A DNA stretch of 36,144 nucleotides from Phycisphaerales bacterium (GTDB lineage Bacteria; Planctomycetota; Phycisphaerae; Phycisphaerales; SM1A02). Numbering within the stretch: position 1 is the first letter of the stretch; every line of letters starts with the position of its first letter. Positions 2,642 to 10,039 of this stretch are shown here, piece after piece. A program made the translations under genes and the position numbers. The notes beneath the pieces are model-generated. The model saw only the letters and a list, made by a program, of their open reading frames with translations, was not told the DNA's origin and ran no database searches. The stretch is from assembly GCA_022616475.1 (NCBI GenBank), contig JAKEEP010000142.1, positions 1 to 36,144 on the forward strand, given 5' to 3'.

Positions 2642-3373
2642 CTATCGTGGTCTCACGCCGACAAACATCTCACCCACCTGCAGCTCGTTGACCGCCGGCT
2701 CCCTCGCGGCCTGGAAACCCGTTTCGCGCAACAATCGCACCCAGGTCGACCGAGAAAACAATCCGAGTCGATGCCGATCCTGCTCCACCCGAATCGCCCC
2801 ATCGCGATCGTAAAGCAAATAGGCAAAATCCACGGTGAAATGCGCATCGGCCGGATCGGGATCCCAGCAACGCTCCAGGTATCGCAACGACCGGCCATCA
2901 GCTCCGTCGTGCCCGCCATGATCAGTCGATGGCGTCCAAGTCTCGGTGGTGCAATCGGGCACGAACAATGCGGCGCCCCCGGGAGCACAGTGCGCAAACG
3001 CCGTCTCAACCGCTTGCCGCAAGTGATCCTCAGCGCACAGATACATGACTGCATCGTGCACGAATACCGCATCGAACTGTCGCGCCAGACGAAGCGATCG
3101 CATGTCTCCCTGAACGTGCTCGCATTCAGGATTCAGCTTGCAGCTGACACCCAACATTTCGGCTGAGAGATCAGTCAGCGTGAGCTTGCACTTGCGCTTG
3201 AGATGGACTGCATTGTTCCCGCCGCCGCACCCAAGCTCCAGCATCGTGCGAATCGGCCTCCGTGCGTGCTTGCACAGAACGTTCCAATAGTGGTCCGCTT
3301 CCTTCGCATAATCATCCGGCGAAGAGAGCAGCGGCCACCACTCGGCGAGCGTCGAGTACAGCTTCATCGACAT
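2642..3373 (-). CDS. Class I SAM-dependent methyltransferase, substrate unknown
   Basis: 243 residues with a Rossmann-type methyltransferase fold. Motif I is MLELGCGGGNN near 44-54 (SAM-binding glycine loop); LTDLSAEML follows as the acidic end of strand 2, and FDAVFVHDAVMYL is the post-motif block near 105-117. The C-terminal half (TVDFAYLLYDRDGAIRVEQDRHRLGLFSRSTWVRLLRETGF) is the layout common in small-molecule methyltransferases. A GAGG sequence 8 bases before the ATG at 3373 supports this start. It lies 44 bases upstream of kbl on the same strand and may be co-transcribed. The substrate cannot be named. Confidence 0.85.
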   Translation of the reverse strand: MSMKLYSTLAEWWPLLSSPDDYAKEADHYWNVLCKHARRPIRTMLELGCGGGNNAVHLKRKCKLTLTDLSAEMLGVSCKLNPECEHVQGDMRSLRLARQFDAVFVHDAVMYLCAEDHLRQAVETAFAHCAPGGAALFVPDCTTETWTPSTDHGGHDGADGRSLRYLERCWDPDPADAHFTVDFAYLLYDRDGAIRVEQDRHRLGLFSRSTWVRLLRETGFQAAREPAVNELQVGEMFVGVRPR

Positions 3374-3392: not shown

Positions 3393-4127
3393 TCATACTG
3401 GCTTGGGCCTGGACCTTCGCAACTTGCGCCCGCATTCAGTGCACACCGGCGAGACGCCTATCGGATATCCGCACCCAACGCAGCGCGATCGCATGAAGCG
3501 CACGGCCCGGCGCAGCCCAACCCAAGCCCCAACCATCCCTGCAAAGCACGCCGAGTAGAACAGCGTGTTCATCGCAAATCCAAGCCAAAGCGGCCGAAAC
3601 GGCAACATCACCGGCATCGTCATGCGATATACCGTGATCGGCGTCTTGGTGGTCACGATCGCCCACGATGACCGCGCCGGCGCTGGGGTGGGCGCGCGCG
3701 AGGCATCAAAATCCAGCCGGCCCTCCAACGTCATGCATGGCCACCCCGACCGCACCAGTGCAATCATCGGATACGGACCGTTGATCGCGTCTCTCGCGAC
3801 TGAAGGCGACGTGATTTCGATCATCATGAATTGCGCACCGCGCGGTGAAGACACCATGTCCACAAAATGCTGCTGCTGTGGCGTGTCTCGCGCAAAGAAC
3901 TCGCGGCGCAGCTTCGCCAGCAGGAGCGGGTCGAACGTCCCACCCGGCTTGGACCAATAGGCGCACACCCAACTCACGGCCACGTTCATCACCAGCCCGG
4001 CAGCGAGAAATCCAGCGATGAGGAGAATTCGACGCCACATGACGGATGCATTCAATGGAAGGAACGTCAAAGGAGCCCAACGGTTGCCCAAAGAGAATCG
4101 ATTTGGGGCCCCGGCCCGGCGCGTCAT
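3393..4127 (-). CDS. Membrane protein with C-terminal zinc ribbon, unknown function
   Basis: 244 residues if it starts at the ATG at 4127, which shares one base (TGATG) with the stop of the gene upstream, a translational-coupling arrangement. An internal ATG at 4040 (MWRRILLIAGFLAAG) would place the first membrane helix at the N-terminus and is an alternative. Visible features: a hydrophobic helix (ILLIAGFLAAGLVMNVAVSWVCAYW), a long soluble part, a second hydrophobic region (LWLGFAMNTLFYSACFAGMVGAWVGL) and a four-cysteine ribbon CVGCGYPIGVSPVCTECGRKL at the end. Short membrane proteins closing with such a CxxCGY...CxxCG ribbon are frequent in planctomycetes; their job is not known. Lies 19 bases upstream of the methyltransferase on the same strand. 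Confidence 0.7.
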   Translation of the reverse strand: MTRRAGAPNRFSLGNRWAPLTFLPLNASVMWRRILLIAGFLAAGLVMNVAVSWVCAYWSKPGGTFDPLLLAKLRREFFARDTPQQQHFVDMVSSPRGAQFMMIEITSPSVARDAINGPYPMIALVRSGWPCMTLEGRLDFDASRAPTPAPARSSWAIVTTKTPITVYRMTMPVMLPFRPLWLGFAMNTLFYSACFAGMVGAWVGLRRAVRFMRSRCVGCGYPIGVSPVCTECGRKLRRSRPKPV

Positions 4128-4507
4128 CAACGATCGTCAGGCGTTTGCGGCACATACCACTCGCGGCGGAGCAACGCCAGGCACGTCGCCGCTCCGACGA
4201 AAGCCACCACCCAAAGCGGAATTTGCACGATTCGAACCGGCCCCGTCACGTTGAACTCGAACCACCAATCCCAATCACGCTTCAAGAACCTGTCCAATCG
4301 CCAACCTGGCTGCGTGTTCGAGAGTATCGTTCCGCGTTCACCCCACACCCAGCGCCAACATCCGTGACGAATATTGAAATGCGTCTGCGAGCCATCGCTG
4401 GCGACCGGCAGCGTCCAACTCAGCGAACATCGGCTGCTGGCGCCCCAGGCGATGAATGCCGCCAGCGACAACGATCCGATCAACCAGCGCGCCGTTCGCA
4501 GAATCAT
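4127..4507 (-). CDS. Small membrane protein, unknown function
   Basis: 126 residues. An N-terminal hydrophobic segment (WLIGSLSLAAFIAWGAS) is followed by a Trp-rich soluble stretch (HGCWRWVWGERG, RDWDWWFEF) and a C-terminal hydrophobic segment (IPLWVVAFVGAATCLALL). This layout matches the first part of planctomycete proteins whose last part is a zinc ribbon; here the ribbon is absent, while the next gene has one. The ATG at 4507 overlaps the stop of the upstream threonine dehydrogenase remnant by four bases (ATGA), and its own stop shares a base with the start of the next gene. It therefore looks like an original member of a tdh-to-kbl operon. No function can be assigned. Confidence 0.65.
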   Translation of the reverse strand: MILRTARWLIGSLSLAAFIAWGASSRCSLSWTLPVASDGSQTHFNIRHGCWRWVWGERGTILSNTQPGWRLDRFLKRDWDWWFEFNVTGPVRIVQIPLWVVAFVGAATCLALLRREWYVPQTPDDR

Positions 4508-4640
4508 CTCACCTGAGCGTACCGCGCCCGAATGCCCGGCACCAAATACTCCTCAAATGCCCGCTGCAAGTCGTGGCGCGGGAGACCGGCAATCCCATAA
4601 CGGCTTGCCTGGGCCCGCCGAATGCACAATTCGCCTGGTG
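4504..4640 (-). pseudogene. Decayed 3' end of an L-threonine 3-dehydrogenase gene
   Basis: The last codons read PRHDLQRAFEEYLVPGIRARY, which differs at only 2 of 21 residues from the C-terminus of the intact tdh gene at 7143-8294. At DNA level 4531-4580 matches 7161-7210 at about 40 of 50 positions, with most changes silent, so the tail diverged while under protein-level selection. Further upstream similarity is weaker and needs gaps (shared GGGCC and CACAAT blocks near 4611-4630), implying frameshifts. Both tails finish in an ATGA overlap context, here with the start of the gene at 4507. The rest of the gene is missing. From 4641 to 4823 I see no convincing gene. Confidence 0.7.
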
Positions 4641-4823
4641 GCCCCCGAAAACTCAAGCTGACCTTCACCCGATGACGAGAACCCATGCGAACAAAGCCCT
4701 GGTTGGAGTACGACGGCATCGTCGCCGGATGTAACCGGAACTATTGTTTGCACATCAACGCTCCGCCTGGCCTACCGCAGATGCCGCTCGAATGGAATCC
4801 TTTTTAGTCAGTACAATCCGCCA

Positions 4824-5804
4824 GTGCTGAACGACCTCAAGGGTGTCAACATTCACGTGCTGAGCGATGATGATCCGAAGCATCATCGTTGCCCGCGCGC
4901 CGCTGCCGCAGACGATTTGTTCATCGTCAGCCATTTTGATCTGCTCGAACGTCTCGTGGAACGTGGCGTGCCGAGTCATCGCATCGCGATCGCTCCACCG
5001 GGTTTGAGCCGCGAATGGATCGATGGGCTCAAGGTGACGAACCCTCACACGGAAATCATTCCCCCTGCGCCGTATGAGTCGCAGTTTCGCACGCTGGTTG
5101 TCCTACCGACATACAACGAGCGCGCCAATCTCAGCGCCATGGTCGCCGCCATCCATGCGCATCTGGTCTGCGATGTGCTCATCGCCGATGACAATTCGCC
5201 CGACGGCACAGGTGCGATCGCCGACACTCTGAGCGCGGCGGACTCTCGCGTGCGCGTTCTGCACCGGCCGACCAAGGAAGGCCTCGGTCGCGCTTACATT
5301 GCCGGCTTTCGCTGGGCCATGGAGCGAGATTACCAGCGCGTCATCCAGATGGATTGCGATTTCAGCCACTCGCCTTGTGATTTGCCGCGCCTCGTGCACG
5401 CAAGCGCTTCCGCCGACCTGGTTATTGGCAGCAGATACGTGCGCGGTGGGCGGACTGATGGATGGAGCTGGATGCGTCGCCAAGTCTCTCGCGGGAACAC
5501 CTACACGCGCCTGCTACTTGGATTCTCCGTGCGCGATTGGACCGCCGGGTTTCGATGCTTGACCGTCAATCTTCTTCGGCGCCTCCATTTGGACGACATT
5601 GCCGCCAACGGCTTTGGATTTCAAGTCGAGATCGTCTGGAAGGCCAAGAACCTCGGCGCCGCCATTTGCGAGATCCCGATCAACTTCCGCCAGCGGCGAG
5701 CCGGAGCCAGCAAGATGAGTCGCTCGATCATTTTTGAAGCGCTTCGTCTCGTGCCGGCGATGCGCTTCTCAGCGCCATCGCGCGCCCTTGAAGCCGCCTC
5801 ATGA
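4824..5804 (+). CDS. GT2 glycosyltransferase, polyprenol-phosphate mannose synthase type
   Basis: Likely transfers a sugar from a nucleotide donor to polyprenyl phosphate, supplying a lipid-linked donor to membrane transferases such as the next gene. The GT2 domain starts near residue 88: TLVVLPTYNER, then LIADDNSPDGT, VIQMDCDFSHSP (the metal-binding DxD-type motif), VIGSRYVRGG, DWTAGFRCL and the closing GFGFQVEIVWKAKNLG...VPINF-type block ending RAGASKM. No C-terminal membrane helices, as in soluble DPM synthases. The first ~85 residues (IVSHFDLLERLVERGVPSHR and so on) are not part of the domain and look like a piece of another protein. GTG at 4824 gives the longest form; GTG at 5034 would give a normal-length enzyme. 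Its stop overlaps the next start (ATGA). Confidence 0.82.
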   Translation: MLNDLKGVNIHVLSDDDPKHHRCPRAAAADDLFIVSHFDLLERLVERGVPSHRIAIAPPGLSREWIDGLKVTNPHTEIIPPAPYESQFRTLVVLPTYNERANLSAMVAAIHAHLVCDVLIADDNSPDGTGAIADTLSAADSRVRVLHRPTKEGLGRAYIAGFRWAMERDYQRVIQMDCDFSHSPCDLPRLVHASASADLVIGSRYVRGGRTDGWSWMRRQVSRGNTYTRLLLGFSVRDWTAGFRCLTVNLLRRLHLDDIAANGFGFQVEIVWKAKNLGAAICEIPINFRQRRAGASKMSRSIIFEALRLVPAMRFSAPSRALEAAS

Positions 5805-7366
5805 ACCAAGCCGCTTCACGGGCATGTTCTTCCGGGCTTGTTCATCCGGACCACGGCGCGGGGTTGCATCAGGGCCGCCGCCTCCCTTGGCTCAAATGGG
5901 TGATTTTGGTCGTGTTCATCGCGGTGCCCTCTCTGCTCATTCCATATTTTCGTAGCAGTGGCGGAGATTTGGACGTGTTGCTGAAAGGCGGCCAGCGCCT
6001 CGTGCACGCCGAACCGCTCTATCAGGTGGGCAATCGGTTCACCTATCCGCCGTTTGCAGCCCTCCCGTTCGCGGTTTTGGCTGCCTTGCCAGAGTCGATC
6101 CAACGTGAGGTTTGGTACGCCGTCAACTTCACATGCATGGCGCTGATTCTCTCGATTCTCGCCAGACAGATTCGACCGGTTTTGCAGGGCCACAGCGCGC
6201 AGACCGGCGCACGAGTGAATCGCCTGTCAATGTGTACGTTCTGGAGCCTCTTCTTTCTTTTGGCGGCTCGTCATGTTCTGGCCCCTATCGAAAACCAGCA
6301 ATACGACCTCCTGGTCTTGTTGCTGGTTGTGCTGGCCATCGATTTTTCCTGTTCCGAAAGGCATTGGCGTGCTGGGGCTTTCGCTGGTCTGGCGGCCGCG
6401 TGTAAGGCCACACCGCTGCTCTTTCTCCCAACCATGCTTTGGCAGCGCCGATGGCTTGCGAGCATCACGTTCCTCATTGCTGCGGCCAGCGCAACGTTTC
6501 TACCTGACGTGTTGTTCCCAAGTGGGACGGACGAACTTTGGGTTCAGCAGTGGTTCACCACCTATGTTGCAAAAGCGAGCATCGGTGAAAGTCCAAACGT
6601 CGAAGGAGCATGGACCGACTGGAACATGCTGAACCAGAGCCTGGCGGGCACCTGGCATCGACTTTCGACACCTTCCCCAAAGAACTCCGGATCATTTGAC
6701 GTCCGCCTCTGGGCGCCATCGCCGAGGTTGAGCAAGTTCGGGTTGGTCGCGGCGCAAGTCGGCATCGTCGCCTGGCTCTGGTTGACCACGCGCCGATCAC
6801 TGGCCAACCGCGCGAATACGCTCGCACTGCCCTACCGCCGTTTGGGCGAGGGAAGCGCCGTTGTCAGCGCCATGCTCTTGCTTTCGCCCATGAGCAGCAA
6901 GGCACATTTCTGCGTGCTGCTCTTGCCAATAGCCTTCTGCCTGGCGGACTTTCTTCACCGACGCCGCGATTGGTTCGTTGGCTGCATGTTGGTTCTTCTG
7001 TTTGTGCTCGGCGCCGCCACCGCCAAAGGCATCGTCGGTCGTGAGCTCGGTTCGGCCTTTCTCGCTCGTGGGTCGGTCACTTGGTGCGCCCTGGCCAGCC
7101 TCCTCGGCACCGGCTGGATCCTCCTCCGCGCTGACCAGCCGATCATCGATACCTGGCGGAAATCCGCGGCACCAGGTACTCTTCAAAGGCTCGCTGCAAA
7201 TCATGCCGCGGCGCAAACCCCCAGTCCCGCCGCGCCGCCCCGTCGTCAACATTCTCGGGCCAACTATCCACAATCTGCTGACGCTGTTCATCCGGCTCGA
7301 ACCGGATCTTCGCGCGAGGAAAGCACTTCTTGGCCAAAGTTGCGAATTCCCCCGCGCTCGGATTGA
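5801..7366 (+). CDS. DUF2029/GT87-like polytopic mannosyltransferase, C-terminus probably lost
   Basis: 521 residues as read. Many hydrophobic segments (for example WVILVVFIAVPSLLIPYF, ALILSILA, LLVLLLVVLAIDF, SITFLIAAASATFL), the GGDLDVLLKGGQRLV...LYQVGNRFTYPPFAALPFA region and the AAACKATPLLFLP loop are typical of DUF2029 (GT87) polyprenol-phosphate-dependent mannosyltransferases of the cytoplasmic membrane. The preceding gene, which overlaps by 4 bases, would make its donor. The last helix ends near 7130; the following ~75 residues are Pro/Ala/Arg-rich and are simply the antisense of the tdh 3' end (overlap 7143-7366). This suggests the natural stop was lost at a recombination junction near 7143. 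Codon-level function of the extension is doubtful. Confidence 0.78.
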   Translation: MNQAASRACSSGLVHPDHGAGLHQGRRLPWLKWVILVVFIAVPSLLIPYFRSSGGDLDVLLKGGQRLVHAEPLYQVGNRFTYPPFAALPFAVLAALPESIQREVWYAVNFTCMALILSILARQIRPVLQGHSAQTGARVNRLSMCTFWSLFFLLAARHVLAPIENQQYDLLVLLLVVLAIDFSCSERHWRAGAFAGLAAACKATPLLFLPTMLWQRRWLASITFLIAAASATFLPDVLFPSGTDELWVQQWFTTYVAKASIGESPNVEGAWTDWNMLNQSLAGTWHRLSTPSPKNSGSFDVRLWAPSPRLSKFGLVAAQVGIVAWLWLTTRRSLANRANTLALPYRRLGEGSAVVSAMLLLSPMSSKAHFCVLLLPIAFCLADFLHRRRDWFVGCMLVLLFVLGAATAKGIVGRELGSAFLARGSVTWCALASLLGTGWILLRADQPIIDTWRKSAAPGTLQRLAANHAAAQTPSPAAPPRRQHSRANYPQSADAVHPARTGSSREESTSWPKLRIPPRSD

Positions 7367-8294
7367 AGCTCGTCACGTTGTACACGCACTGCCCCAGCCG
7401 CTTGCGTTCCACCTCCGCCAGCTTCAGCAGGGCGTCGATCGCATCGGGCATCGTCATAAAGGGAATTCGCGTGTCTGGCCGCACAAAACACGCGTATTCC
7501 TTGCCAGCTGCCGCCGCATGCAGCATCTCCGGCCCGTAATCACTGGTCCCGCCCGAAGGCAGCGTGTCGGCGCTGATCAGCCCAGGAAACCGAATCGAGC
7601 GGAAATCCAGCACGTCCGGCACGCGATCCTGCGCCAGCAAACGATAGTGATGCGAGTAATAACGCCCCAGGTGCTCGCAGTAGAGCTTGTTGCAGCCGTA
7701 CATCGTGATCGGCCGGCAAAACTCATCCTCCCCCACTGCCCCCGCTTCGCCTTTGATCTCCACGCTCGGCATGCCGTACACCGCAATTGAGCTGGGAAAA
7801 ATGAACTTCACTCGCTGCCCGTGCGAGCGAGCCTGCTCGGCCGCCAGCCGAAGCAAACTCACTGTGCCGTTTACATTCACTTCGTGAGCGGTTTCGGGCG
7901 TGAACTCCCCGCGCGTGCTCAAGAGCGCCGCCAGATGATAGATCTCCGTAATCTCGTACATCGCCAGCAATCGCTCCAGCAATGAGCGATCACAAATGTC
8001 GCCCACAAACGAATCCTGGCACATCGCGCGCTGCTTGGCATCCAGCTCGCGAATGTCGATAGCGACGATTTGCCGTCCACCCGACGCATGCAACGCGCCG
8101 ATCAAACCATGGCCGACCTCCCCTCCGGCCCCGGTGATGAGCACCGCCGCGCTTCGCCGCCCGCCGCGCTGGTGTTGCGAACCTGTCGAAGGCGATTTCA
8201 TGGTCGATGGTTCAGCGGTTGATGCTGGCTGGGAGTGTGGCTTGGTTACGCGATGAGCAGCGGCGCTCGCGCCGGATGCCGTCGGTGAGTTCAT
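7143..8294 (-). CDS. tdh: L-threonine 3-dehydrogenase, SDR (epimerase-like) type
   Basis: 383 residues from the ATG at 8294, chosen because GGAAAGG lies 9 bases upstream; an in-frame ATG at 8327 would add 11 residues. The N-terminal ~45 residues are low-complexity. The Rossmann motif TGAGGEVG is near 54-61, followed by VAIDIRE, then EITEIYHLAALLST, IFPSSIAVYG (catalytic Ser) and Y199xxxK203. RFPGLIS, GGTSDYGPEMLHAA, DTRIPFMTMPDAIDALL and the SFNPSAGEFA block are features of the UDP-galactose-epimerase-like threonine dehydrogenases that oxidise threonine to 2-amino-3-ketobutyrate with NAD. The product is the substrate of Kbl, encoded on the same strand. Its 3' end is duplicated at 4504-4640 and overlapped antisense by the gene at 5801. 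A general sugar epimerase is the alternative. Confidence 0.82.
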   Translation of the reverse strand: MNSPTASGASAAAHRVTKPHSQPASTAEPSTMKSPSTGSQHQRGGRRSAAVLITGAGGEVGHGLIGALHASGGRQIVAIDIRELDAKQRAMCQDSFVGDICDRSLLERLLAMYEITEIYHLAALLSTRGEFTPETAHEVNVNGTVSLLRLAAEQARSHGQRVKFIFPSSIAVYGMPSVEIKGEAGAVGEDEFCRPITMYGCNKLYCEHLGRYYSHHYRLLAQDRVPDVLDFRSIRFPGLISADTLPSGGTSDYGPEMLHAAAAGKEYACFVRPDTRIPFMTMPDAIDALLKLAEVERKRLGQCVYNVTSFNPSAGEFATLAKKCFPRAKIRFEPDEQRQQIVDSWPENVDDGAARRDWGFAPRHDLQRAFEEYLVPRISARYR

Positions 8295-8394
8295 GAACGA
8301 AGGCCTTTCCAAATCGATCGCCGGCATTGTAAGGCAAGAGGCTATCCCAGAACCCTCTCACTCTGAGGGCAAGGGGTTCGCGCGGGAACCTCCT

Positions 8395-8610
8395 CTACCT
8401 GTCCAGTTCGTCAATCCACGCCTGCTGAATCGCCTCCAGAATGCGCTCGTTGCACGGGTGGCCGGGTTGTTCCTTGAATCCCTGAAGCTGTTGAACCAGC
8501 GCTTTGAGCTTGGGAAAGCTGATGGTCAGCGGATCGATGTCCGGATGCTGCTCGCTCAGCTCAATCCCAATCGGCTCGATGTCCAACCAATGAAAGGTCT
8601 CATTCGCCAT
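8395..8610 (-). CDS. iscX: IscX (YfhJ) family iron-sulfur assembly protein
   Basis: 71 residues, close to the ~66 of the family. The order FHWLDIEPIGIELSEQHPDIDP, then SFPKLKALVQQL, then CNERILEAIQQAWIDE matches the IscX pattern W-D...I...L...P-D-D/I-D-P...L...L..F...P...NE.ILEAI...W.DE. IscX is a small acidic protein that binds IscS and iron and modulates the rate of Fe-S cluster assembly. It lies 87 bases downstream of the ferredoxin gene, the same pairing found at the end of isc operons, but iscS, iscU, iscA, hscA and hscB are not in the window. No good Shine-Dalgarno sequence is seen before the ATG at 8610. Confidence 0.85.
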   Translation of the reverse strand: MANETFHWLDIEPIGIELSEQHPDIDPLTISFPKLKALVQQLQGFKEQPGHPCNERILEAIQQAWIDELDR

Positions 8611-8697: not shown

Positions 8698-9096
8698 CTA
8701 GTGCGGCACTTCCTTCACCGCGTTGCGGTTCCATGCCGGCACGCGAACCACGATCGGTCCGTCGCCTACAATATTGCATTGACAGCTCAGCCTGCTGTTT
8801 CGTTGAAGCCCGGGCGCTTCCTCGACGCGGTCTTCCTCAGCTTCTTCGGCCTCCGAAAGATGCTTCATTCCATCCTCGATGTACACATGGCATGTCGAGC
8901 AGGCGCAGACTGCGCCGCAGGCATGCTCGATGTTGATGCCGTGCTCCACCGCCGCCTCAAGAAGGTGCTCGCCCTTGCTCGCCATCACGTTCCACTCGGT
9001 CTGGTGCGTGTTGGTCAGGCTCTCGGGGTCTTCAAGAACGTACTTGACCGGCACCGTCGGCGGACCGTGTTCATGATCGGAGTGACGCAGATGCAT
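8698..9096 (-). CDS. fdx: ISC-type [2Fe-2S] ferredoxin
   Basis: 132 residues. Four cluster cysteines are visible as C60-x5-C66-x2-C69 (HACGAVCACSTCHVYIEDG) and C105 (SRLSCQCNIV), the spacing of the adrenodoxin-like Fdx of isc operons. The conserved GEHLLEAAVEHGINIEHACG lead-in and the acidic LSEAEEAEEDRVEEAPGL interaction loop are present. It supplies electrons for Fe-S cluster assembly or hydroxylation reactions in the cytosol. The first ~20 residues are a His-rich extension not found in E. coli Fdx. It is followed by iscX and is divergent from the GT2 gene at 9185, so the 88-bp gap should hold promoters for both directions. Confidence 0.88.
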   Translation of the reverse strand: MHLRHSDHEHGPPTVPVKYVLEDPESLTNTHQTEWNVMASKGEHLLEAAVEHGINIEHACGAVCACSTCHVYIEDGMKHLSEAEEAEEDRVEEAPGLQRNSRLSCQCNIVGDGPIVVRVPAWNRNAVKEVPH

Positions 9097-9184
9097 TCGC
9101 TAATTGATTTCCAGTCTCAATTGAACAGTATCCTAGCGGCGCCCACCAACCGAATCGAGTCGTCCGCACCCGCTGGAGGCTGAC

Positions 9185-10039
9185 ATGAGTTCCTCGACGA
9201 CTCCCATCGAACTTTCCATCGTGGCGCCGGCCCACAACGAGCAGGACAACCTCGGGCCCCTTGTTGCCGAGATCGTCGATGCCTTGGCCTTAACCCGCAT
9301 CGGCTACGAGATCATCATCGTCGATGATGGCTCGACCGACCGCACTCCATCGGTCTTGCGCTCTCTGCTCGACGAGTTCCCCCAACTGCACGCGGTAGGA
9401 ATGGCGGAGACACCCGCTGGGCGCGGCAATGGCCAGTCGGCTGCGTTTCACGCCGGTTTCCGTGCCAGTCGAGGCCGCCTGATCGCCATGATGGATGCCG
9501 ATTGCCAGAATGATCCGGGCGACCTGATTCCCATGCTCAAGATGATGCGCGCCACCGGCGCCGACATGGTTCAGGGCGACCGCACCGAATGCCGCTGCGA
9601 CGGCTTGGTGCGCCGCGTCAGCACCTGGGTCGGCTACGCCTTTCGCCGCACCCTGCTTGGAGATTCGATCCGCGACACGGGCTGTTCGCTGCGGCTTTTG
9701 CGCCGCGAAGTGGCCCTGGCCTTGCCCATGGAATACCGCGGAATGCACCGCTACATCCCCGTCACCGCCCGCCATCTGCGCTTCAGCGTCGTCGAAATGT
9801 CTGTGAATCATCGCCCGCGCACCGCCGGAAATACCAAGTACGGAATCTGGAATCGCGCCTTGCCCGGACTGTACGACTGCCTGTCGGTTCGTTGGATGCT
9901 CAAGCGGCGCCGGCCCGTGAACTTTCATCCGCTCAACGTCGTCCCGGACGCCCCGGACGCCCCGGAGATCGTCACCGTCGAGCGGTCAGTCCCAACGATT
10001 GCGCAGGCCGCGCTGGAGCCGACTGGGAGCAGCGCGTGA
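9185..10039 (+). CDS. GT2 glycosyltransferase, DPM1/GtrB-like
   Basis: 284 residues. The GT-A fold motifs are SIVAPAHNEQDNLGPLV, YEIIIVDDGSTDRTP, GQSAAFHAGFRASRGRLIAMMDADCQNDP (metal-binding DAD) and IRDTGCSLRLLRREVAL; the MHRYIPV and RTAGNTKYG blocks match polyprenyl-phosphate glycosyltransferases. No clear membrane helices follow the domain, and the last ~35 residues are Pro/Ala-rich. The stop overlaps the GTG of the following membrane protein (GTGA), so the two are co-translated. In Gram-negative bacteria such a pair is often part of lipid A or lipid-linked sugar modification. The exact donor and acceptor cannot be read from the sequence. Confidence 0.83.
   Translation: MSSSTTPIELSIVAPAHNEQDNLGPLVAEIVDALALTRIGYEIIIVDDGSTDRTPSVLRSLLDEFPQLHAVGMAETPAGRGNGQSAAFHAGFRASRGRLIAMMDADCQNDPGDLIPMLKMMRATGADMVQGDRTECRCDGLVRRVSTWVGYAFRRTLLGDSIRDTGCSLRLLRREVALALPMEYRGMHRYIPVTARHLRFSVVEMSVNHRPRTAGNTKYGIWNRALPGLYDCLSVRWMLKRRRPVNFHPLNVVPDAPDAPEIVTVERSVPTIAQAALEPTGSSA

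Follow-up and report, generated by a model that had tools for sequence, protein, structure and literature searches.

A second 3' end of tdh and a private glycosyltransferase gene pair at the tdh-kbl locus of a Phycisphaerales bacterium

Genes between tdh and kbl

The window, that is, the whole stretch of DNA analysed here, is the complete contig C243 (36,144 bases) of a metagenome-type assembly comprising 331 contigs, with 88% completeness and 4.9% contamination. Its minus strand carries a complete tdh gene (7143-8294) encoding an SDR-type L-threonine 3-dehydrogenase, an assignment based on full-length matches to characterised enzymes (best PDB match 7cgv, an L-threonine 3-dehydrogenase, E 3.5e-61; 5k4t also matches), and this gene is up to 72-73% identical to tdh of same-family genomes. 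Also on the minus strand lies kbl, of the 2-amino-3-ketobutyrate CoA ligase type (1359-2597), the usual direct neighbour of tdh in relatives. Five genes separate the two in this genome, namely GT87, GT2, a gene for a 126-aa protein, a gene for a 245-aa protein and a methyltransferase gene.

The two glycan genes are read from the plus strand. GT2 (4824-5804) is of the polyprenyl-phosphate-mannose synthase type (PF00535, E 4.2e-26) and matched the dolichol monophosphate mannose synthase in PDB entry 5mlz with E 7.4e-30. Catalytic homology starts near position 5097, leaving about 90 residues before it unmatched, and homologues begin at residue 73-91. In the 400 bases before the GT2 domain (window 4686-5090) we noted protein-like frames, e.g. 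DDLFIVSHFDLLERLVERGVPSHRIAIAPPGL, for which no credible match was found and which are possibly a truncated neighbour gene. GT87 (DUF2029; 5801-7142 for the part with homologues) encodes a mannosyltransferase-like membrane protein, matching PF09594 with E 1e-25 and the PRK13375 mannosyltransferase with E 1.1e-11. Judged by these families, GT2 and GT87 would together produce lipid-linked mannose and use it in building a surface glycan. An alien composition of the pair was considered and rejected, as codon usage was normal: GT2, GT87 and tdh were all genome-typical, with z between -0.4 and +0.3 relative to 20 stretches of the genome. Plasmids yielded only short matches to the pair, in polyprenol monophosphomannose synthase genes, and no tdh was found on viral contigs.

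The three genes on the kbl side are all on the minus strand. The 126-aa membrane-type protein (4127-4507) has weak matches only, in two relatives. The 245-aa membrane protein (3393-4130) ends in a C-terminal CxxC zinc ribbon and belongs to a large paralogous family with at least 23 matches in this genome; the member in the window has no Pfam or NCBIfam match. In this family the ribbon reads CxxCxYPxG...CTECG, members often stand in overlapping tandem arrays, and further sites occur at L174 (9294-11585), L177 (8591-10421) and L186 (4421-7332). The third gene encodes a SAM-dependent methyltransferase (2642-3373; PF13649, E 2.3e-14) whose matches lie only in another family of the order, in f6 genomes and not in other f1 genomes.

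Two ends of tdh compared

The 21 conserved C-terminal residues of tdh (PRHDLQRAFEEYLVPxIxARY) are repeated on the minus strand at 4519-4581, in frame to a stop at 4504. We refer to this second end (4504-4581; the 21 conserved codons, then AQVR and the stop) as tail A and to the end of the complete tdh as tail B. A codon-by-codon alignment of the two tails gave matches at 19 of 21 residues and at 47 of 63 bases (75%); 11 codons carried silent differences and 2 carried replacements, and two or fewer replacements from 16 base differences occurred in none of 20,000 random draws. The repeat is real and far above chance: its local DNA score was 52, whereas the maximum among 300 shuffles was 32. The longest identical run between the tails is 8 bases, and beyond the stop codons of both only 10 of 20 bases agree, which is near chance. 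The first-pass annotation had reported 19 identities in 21 residues, DNA about 80 percent identical and mostly silent changes, all of which the alignment bore out, the 80% applying to the best local stretch. It had placed the repeat at 4504-4590, a span of which we retain the homology at 4519-4581 together with the divergent four-codon end and the stop. It had also seen an ATGA overlap at both tails; this holds for tail A, whose stop (4504-4506) overlaps the ATG of the 126-aa gene, whereas at the complete tdh the ATGA leads only into the antisense GT87 frame, with no comparable gene beginning there.

When 98 distinct tdh ends were compared, tail A was closest to tail B and, with the same 47 of 63 bases, to that of L044 from another lineage, followed by G030 with 46 of 63; the next-best match of tail B after tail A reached 45 of 63. 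Tails A and B are thus mutual best matches, for tail A jointly with L044. The best DNA match to tail A in other genomes was the 3' end of the G030 tdh (81% over 62 bases). On this scale, the divergence between the tails is about that between tdh ends of different genera. Since 16 base changes with only 2 replacements were never equalled in the random draws, both tails evolved inside working tdh genes for most of the period since they diverged, and because an orphan of 21 codons would have drifted, tail A probably detached late from its gene. The comparison therefore supports the view that tail A belonged, as its 3' end, to a second tdh that was once functional.

No body of such a gene was recovered. 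A whole-genome tdh search returned the complete gene and one fragment (C243:4519-4596, minus strand, E 2.6e-5), the remaining matches being distant SDR proteins at 28-36%. In the stretch of roughly 240 bases that separates tail A from the GT2 frame (4582-4823, junction J1), neither frames nor DNA contained tdh sequence. J1 has no family match and looks non-homologous; a multi-copy element was considered there and discarded, as no second copy occurs elsewhere in the genome, and an RNA element was likewise rejected after no Rfam match was obtained in 4400-8600. These data bear on the possibility, raised in the first-pass annotation as tandem duplication with decay, that two tandem tdh paralogues existed, of which the downstream one decayed until only the final 21 codons were left, and that the GT pair came to lie between them. 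The shared orientation, the in-frame tail and the mutual best match of A and B (A jointly with L044) would agree with this, but no more decayed tdh sequence lies upstream of tail A, every relative with a match has a single one, and both copies would have had to remain functional over a genus-level divergence dominated by silent changes. We consider such a history improbable. The first-pass annotation had named as contrary patterns the glycan pair with both tdh ends in relatives, or a second tdh copy in relatives, and neither was found.

Neighbourhoods in relatives and the junction at the tdh stop

The surroundings of tdh were compared across 29 loci of the same family and order and 80 loci from the genome collection. 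In 19 of the 29, tdh is followed after 9 to 677 bases by kbl in the same orientation. The glycan pair, the 126-aa gene, the 245-aa gene and the methyltransferase gene were found near tdh in none of the 29 and none of the 80 at the threshold used, and the GT2-GT87 pair was absent from the tdh locus in all relatives searched. GT87 relatives occur in a few genomes of the same bacterial family, at 27-36% identity and away from this locus, and most of the better GT2 relatives belong to other families; both genes lay within the fetched flank only in L121, at 28-37% identity and with no tdh in that flank. Considering that tdh followed by kbl is common and that the others are absent beside tdh, the segment between tdh and kbl reads as a stack of five added genes. 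The proposal that the glycan pair is cargo thus stands insofar as the pair is private to this genome at the locus, but five genes rather than two separate tdh from kbl.

The same comparison lends no support to an older tdh-membrane-membrane-methyltransferase-kbl operon, as the first-pass annotation had it, since no relative has this order and the direct tdh-kbl arrangement is the common one; the three downstream genes would accordingly be additions too. An uninterrupted tdh followed by the 126-aa gene, which would have supported insertion, was likewise found in none, the 126-aa gene lying near tdh in no relative. Judging by the ATGA coupling, the ancestor of this genome may have had such an operon. 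In another planctomycete (L055, 9005-11358), tdh and kbl are separated by about 2.35 kb of other sequence, which was inserted independently at this junction.

At the other end of the pair, the GT87 frame lacks a stop codon at the position of the tdh stop and continues to 7366 on the plus strand, overlapping tdh on the opposite strand by 224 bases. The 74 residues thereby added (7143-7366) are absent from homologues, which end just past the final aligned block, roughly where tdh has its stop codon. The continuation is a probable by-product of a junction, J2, at the tdh stop, and the pattern fits the joining of a GT87 end to a tdh end; an old convergent overlap is a possible alternative.

In trees of tdh and kbl, this genome occupied the same position, on a branch between the same two groups, and this congruence gives no indication of a distant donor for tdh. 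One history consistent with it is that a native tdh with tail B (tdhB) and kbl were split by a single island of about 4.5 kb containing GT87, GT2, tail A, the 126-aa and 245-aa genes and the methyltransferase gene, with tail A as no more than the border of donor DNA where a tdh gene already stood ahead of the 126-aa gene. Besides the congruent trees, the predominance of direct tdh-kbl adjacency, the abutment of GT87 on the tdh stop and the independent insertion in L055 argue for it, whereas the donor order tdh-126aa-245aa-methyltransferase that it requires occurs in no genome and the GT pair is oppositely oriented, which suggests that acquisition took place more than once. We regard this island as possible, if rather unlikely.

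An assembly chimera would be conceivable in a genome as fragmented and incomplete as this one, with its contamination, but 8 identical bases in a row are too few to mislead an assembler and codon usage is uniform across the junctions, leaving this explanation barely credible.

A proposed gene replacement and comparison with known systems

Our tentative preference is for homology-anchored illegitimate recombination, in which a diverged tdh arriving with GT2 and GT87 replaced an older tdh and left its tail behind. Tail A would be the leftover 3' end of the older tdh (tdhA), whose stop overlapped the start of the 126-aa gene. The incoming fragment would have derived from a related bacterium and carried a diverged tdh and, in convergent orientation, GT2 and GT87; one of its ends would have been anchored by homology, within or upstream of tdh, and the other joined without homology some 21-25 codons before the old stop. 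The incoming tdh would thereby have taken the place of the old copy, so that the cell retained one complete tdh, gained two genes for lipid-linked mannose and had the old tail pushed 2.5 kb downstream. The analysis directly shows two tails that differ mostly at silent positions, only one complete tdh, a locus private to this genome and a GT87 frame that extends into tdh. The donor, both crossovers and the role of tdh, rather than of the downstream genes, as the newcomer are inferred.

We favour replacement because both tails bear the mark of coding selection and no tdhA body is left in the genome, and because the contig carries no tyrosine integrase and no tRNA, the tails share no long identical core and the GT pair is absent from this locus in all relatives searched. 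Against it, tdh and kbl share one place in the trees with no sign of a foreign tdh, the codon usage of GT2, GT87 and tdh is genome-typical, and the end of GT87 at the tdh stop suggests a second non-homologous junction there. Such trees would not reveal a donor belonging to the same genus or a neighbouring one, so that origin fits equally well, as does an unmoved tdhB followed by an island.

In e14-type islands, a replacement tail that differs mainly by silent changes keeps icd complete, and the old tail lies at the far end. The complete tdh tail with its mostly silent differences and the old tail at the far end resemble this, and to that extent the comparison with icd islands drawn in the first-pass annotation is apt; unlike those islands, the present case has no tyrosine integrase on the contig and no long identical core, and its cargo is not a prophage. 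The insertion site of e14-type islands is the icd 3' end (PMC3032704). A corresponding history here would be site-specific integration at the tdh 3' end of a circular element with a replacement tail, its integrase lost or supplied in trans. The geometry would be exact, with a complete gene, cargo and an in-frame 3' fragment in the same orientation differing mostly at silent positions. However, a recombinase search restricted to tyrosine integrases (PF00589) gave 7 matches in the genome and none on C243, the longest identical run is the 8 bases noted above and the cargo is only 2.5 kb. Among 116 tdh-bearing loci, moreover, the only other credible tdh-tail repeat was a short one in L115 (Anaerolineaceae), which hints that the gene end can be duplicated elsewhere. 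We therefore hold site-specific integration to be unlikely. The broader idea that the tdh 3' end is an unrecognised attachment site for small integrase-less elements with a replacement tail, in planctomycetes and other phyla, is very doubtful, the other-phyla part following from the hint in L115. In that locus (8993-9230), the last 38 bases of tdh are repeated just downstream with 36 of 38 matching, and a hairpin-like CCCTCTCC...GGAGAGGG stands between the two copies.

The preferred reading, replacement, has parallels in the type VI secretion clusters of Vibrio cholerae, where displaced effector 3' ends have been described and homology-facilitated illegitimate recombination was proposed, and in orphan Rhs 3' regions (PMC5361080). 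As in those systems, a complete new gene version and new cargo precede an old 3' end downstream, with no recombinase, and one complete version stands with the remnant of a diverged one; unlike them, the gene encodes a metabolic enzyme, the cargo concerns mannosyl transfer and only this genome shows the event. It also resembles xenologous gene displacement in situ, in which an operon gene is replaced by a diverged orthologue, but here a remnant of the old gene is visible and the tdh tree gives no foreign signal.

The case is thus likely the scar of ordinary horizontal transfer by a known process rather than a new system. As such, it would be a legible record of gene replacement and cargo gain in an uncultured bacterial lineage, in which a remnant of 21 codons, differing mostly at silent positions, identifies the two tdh versions as working genes that had long been separate. 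The locus also presents the tdh-kbl junction as a site of gene accumulation, in an otherwise ordinary course of genome evolution.
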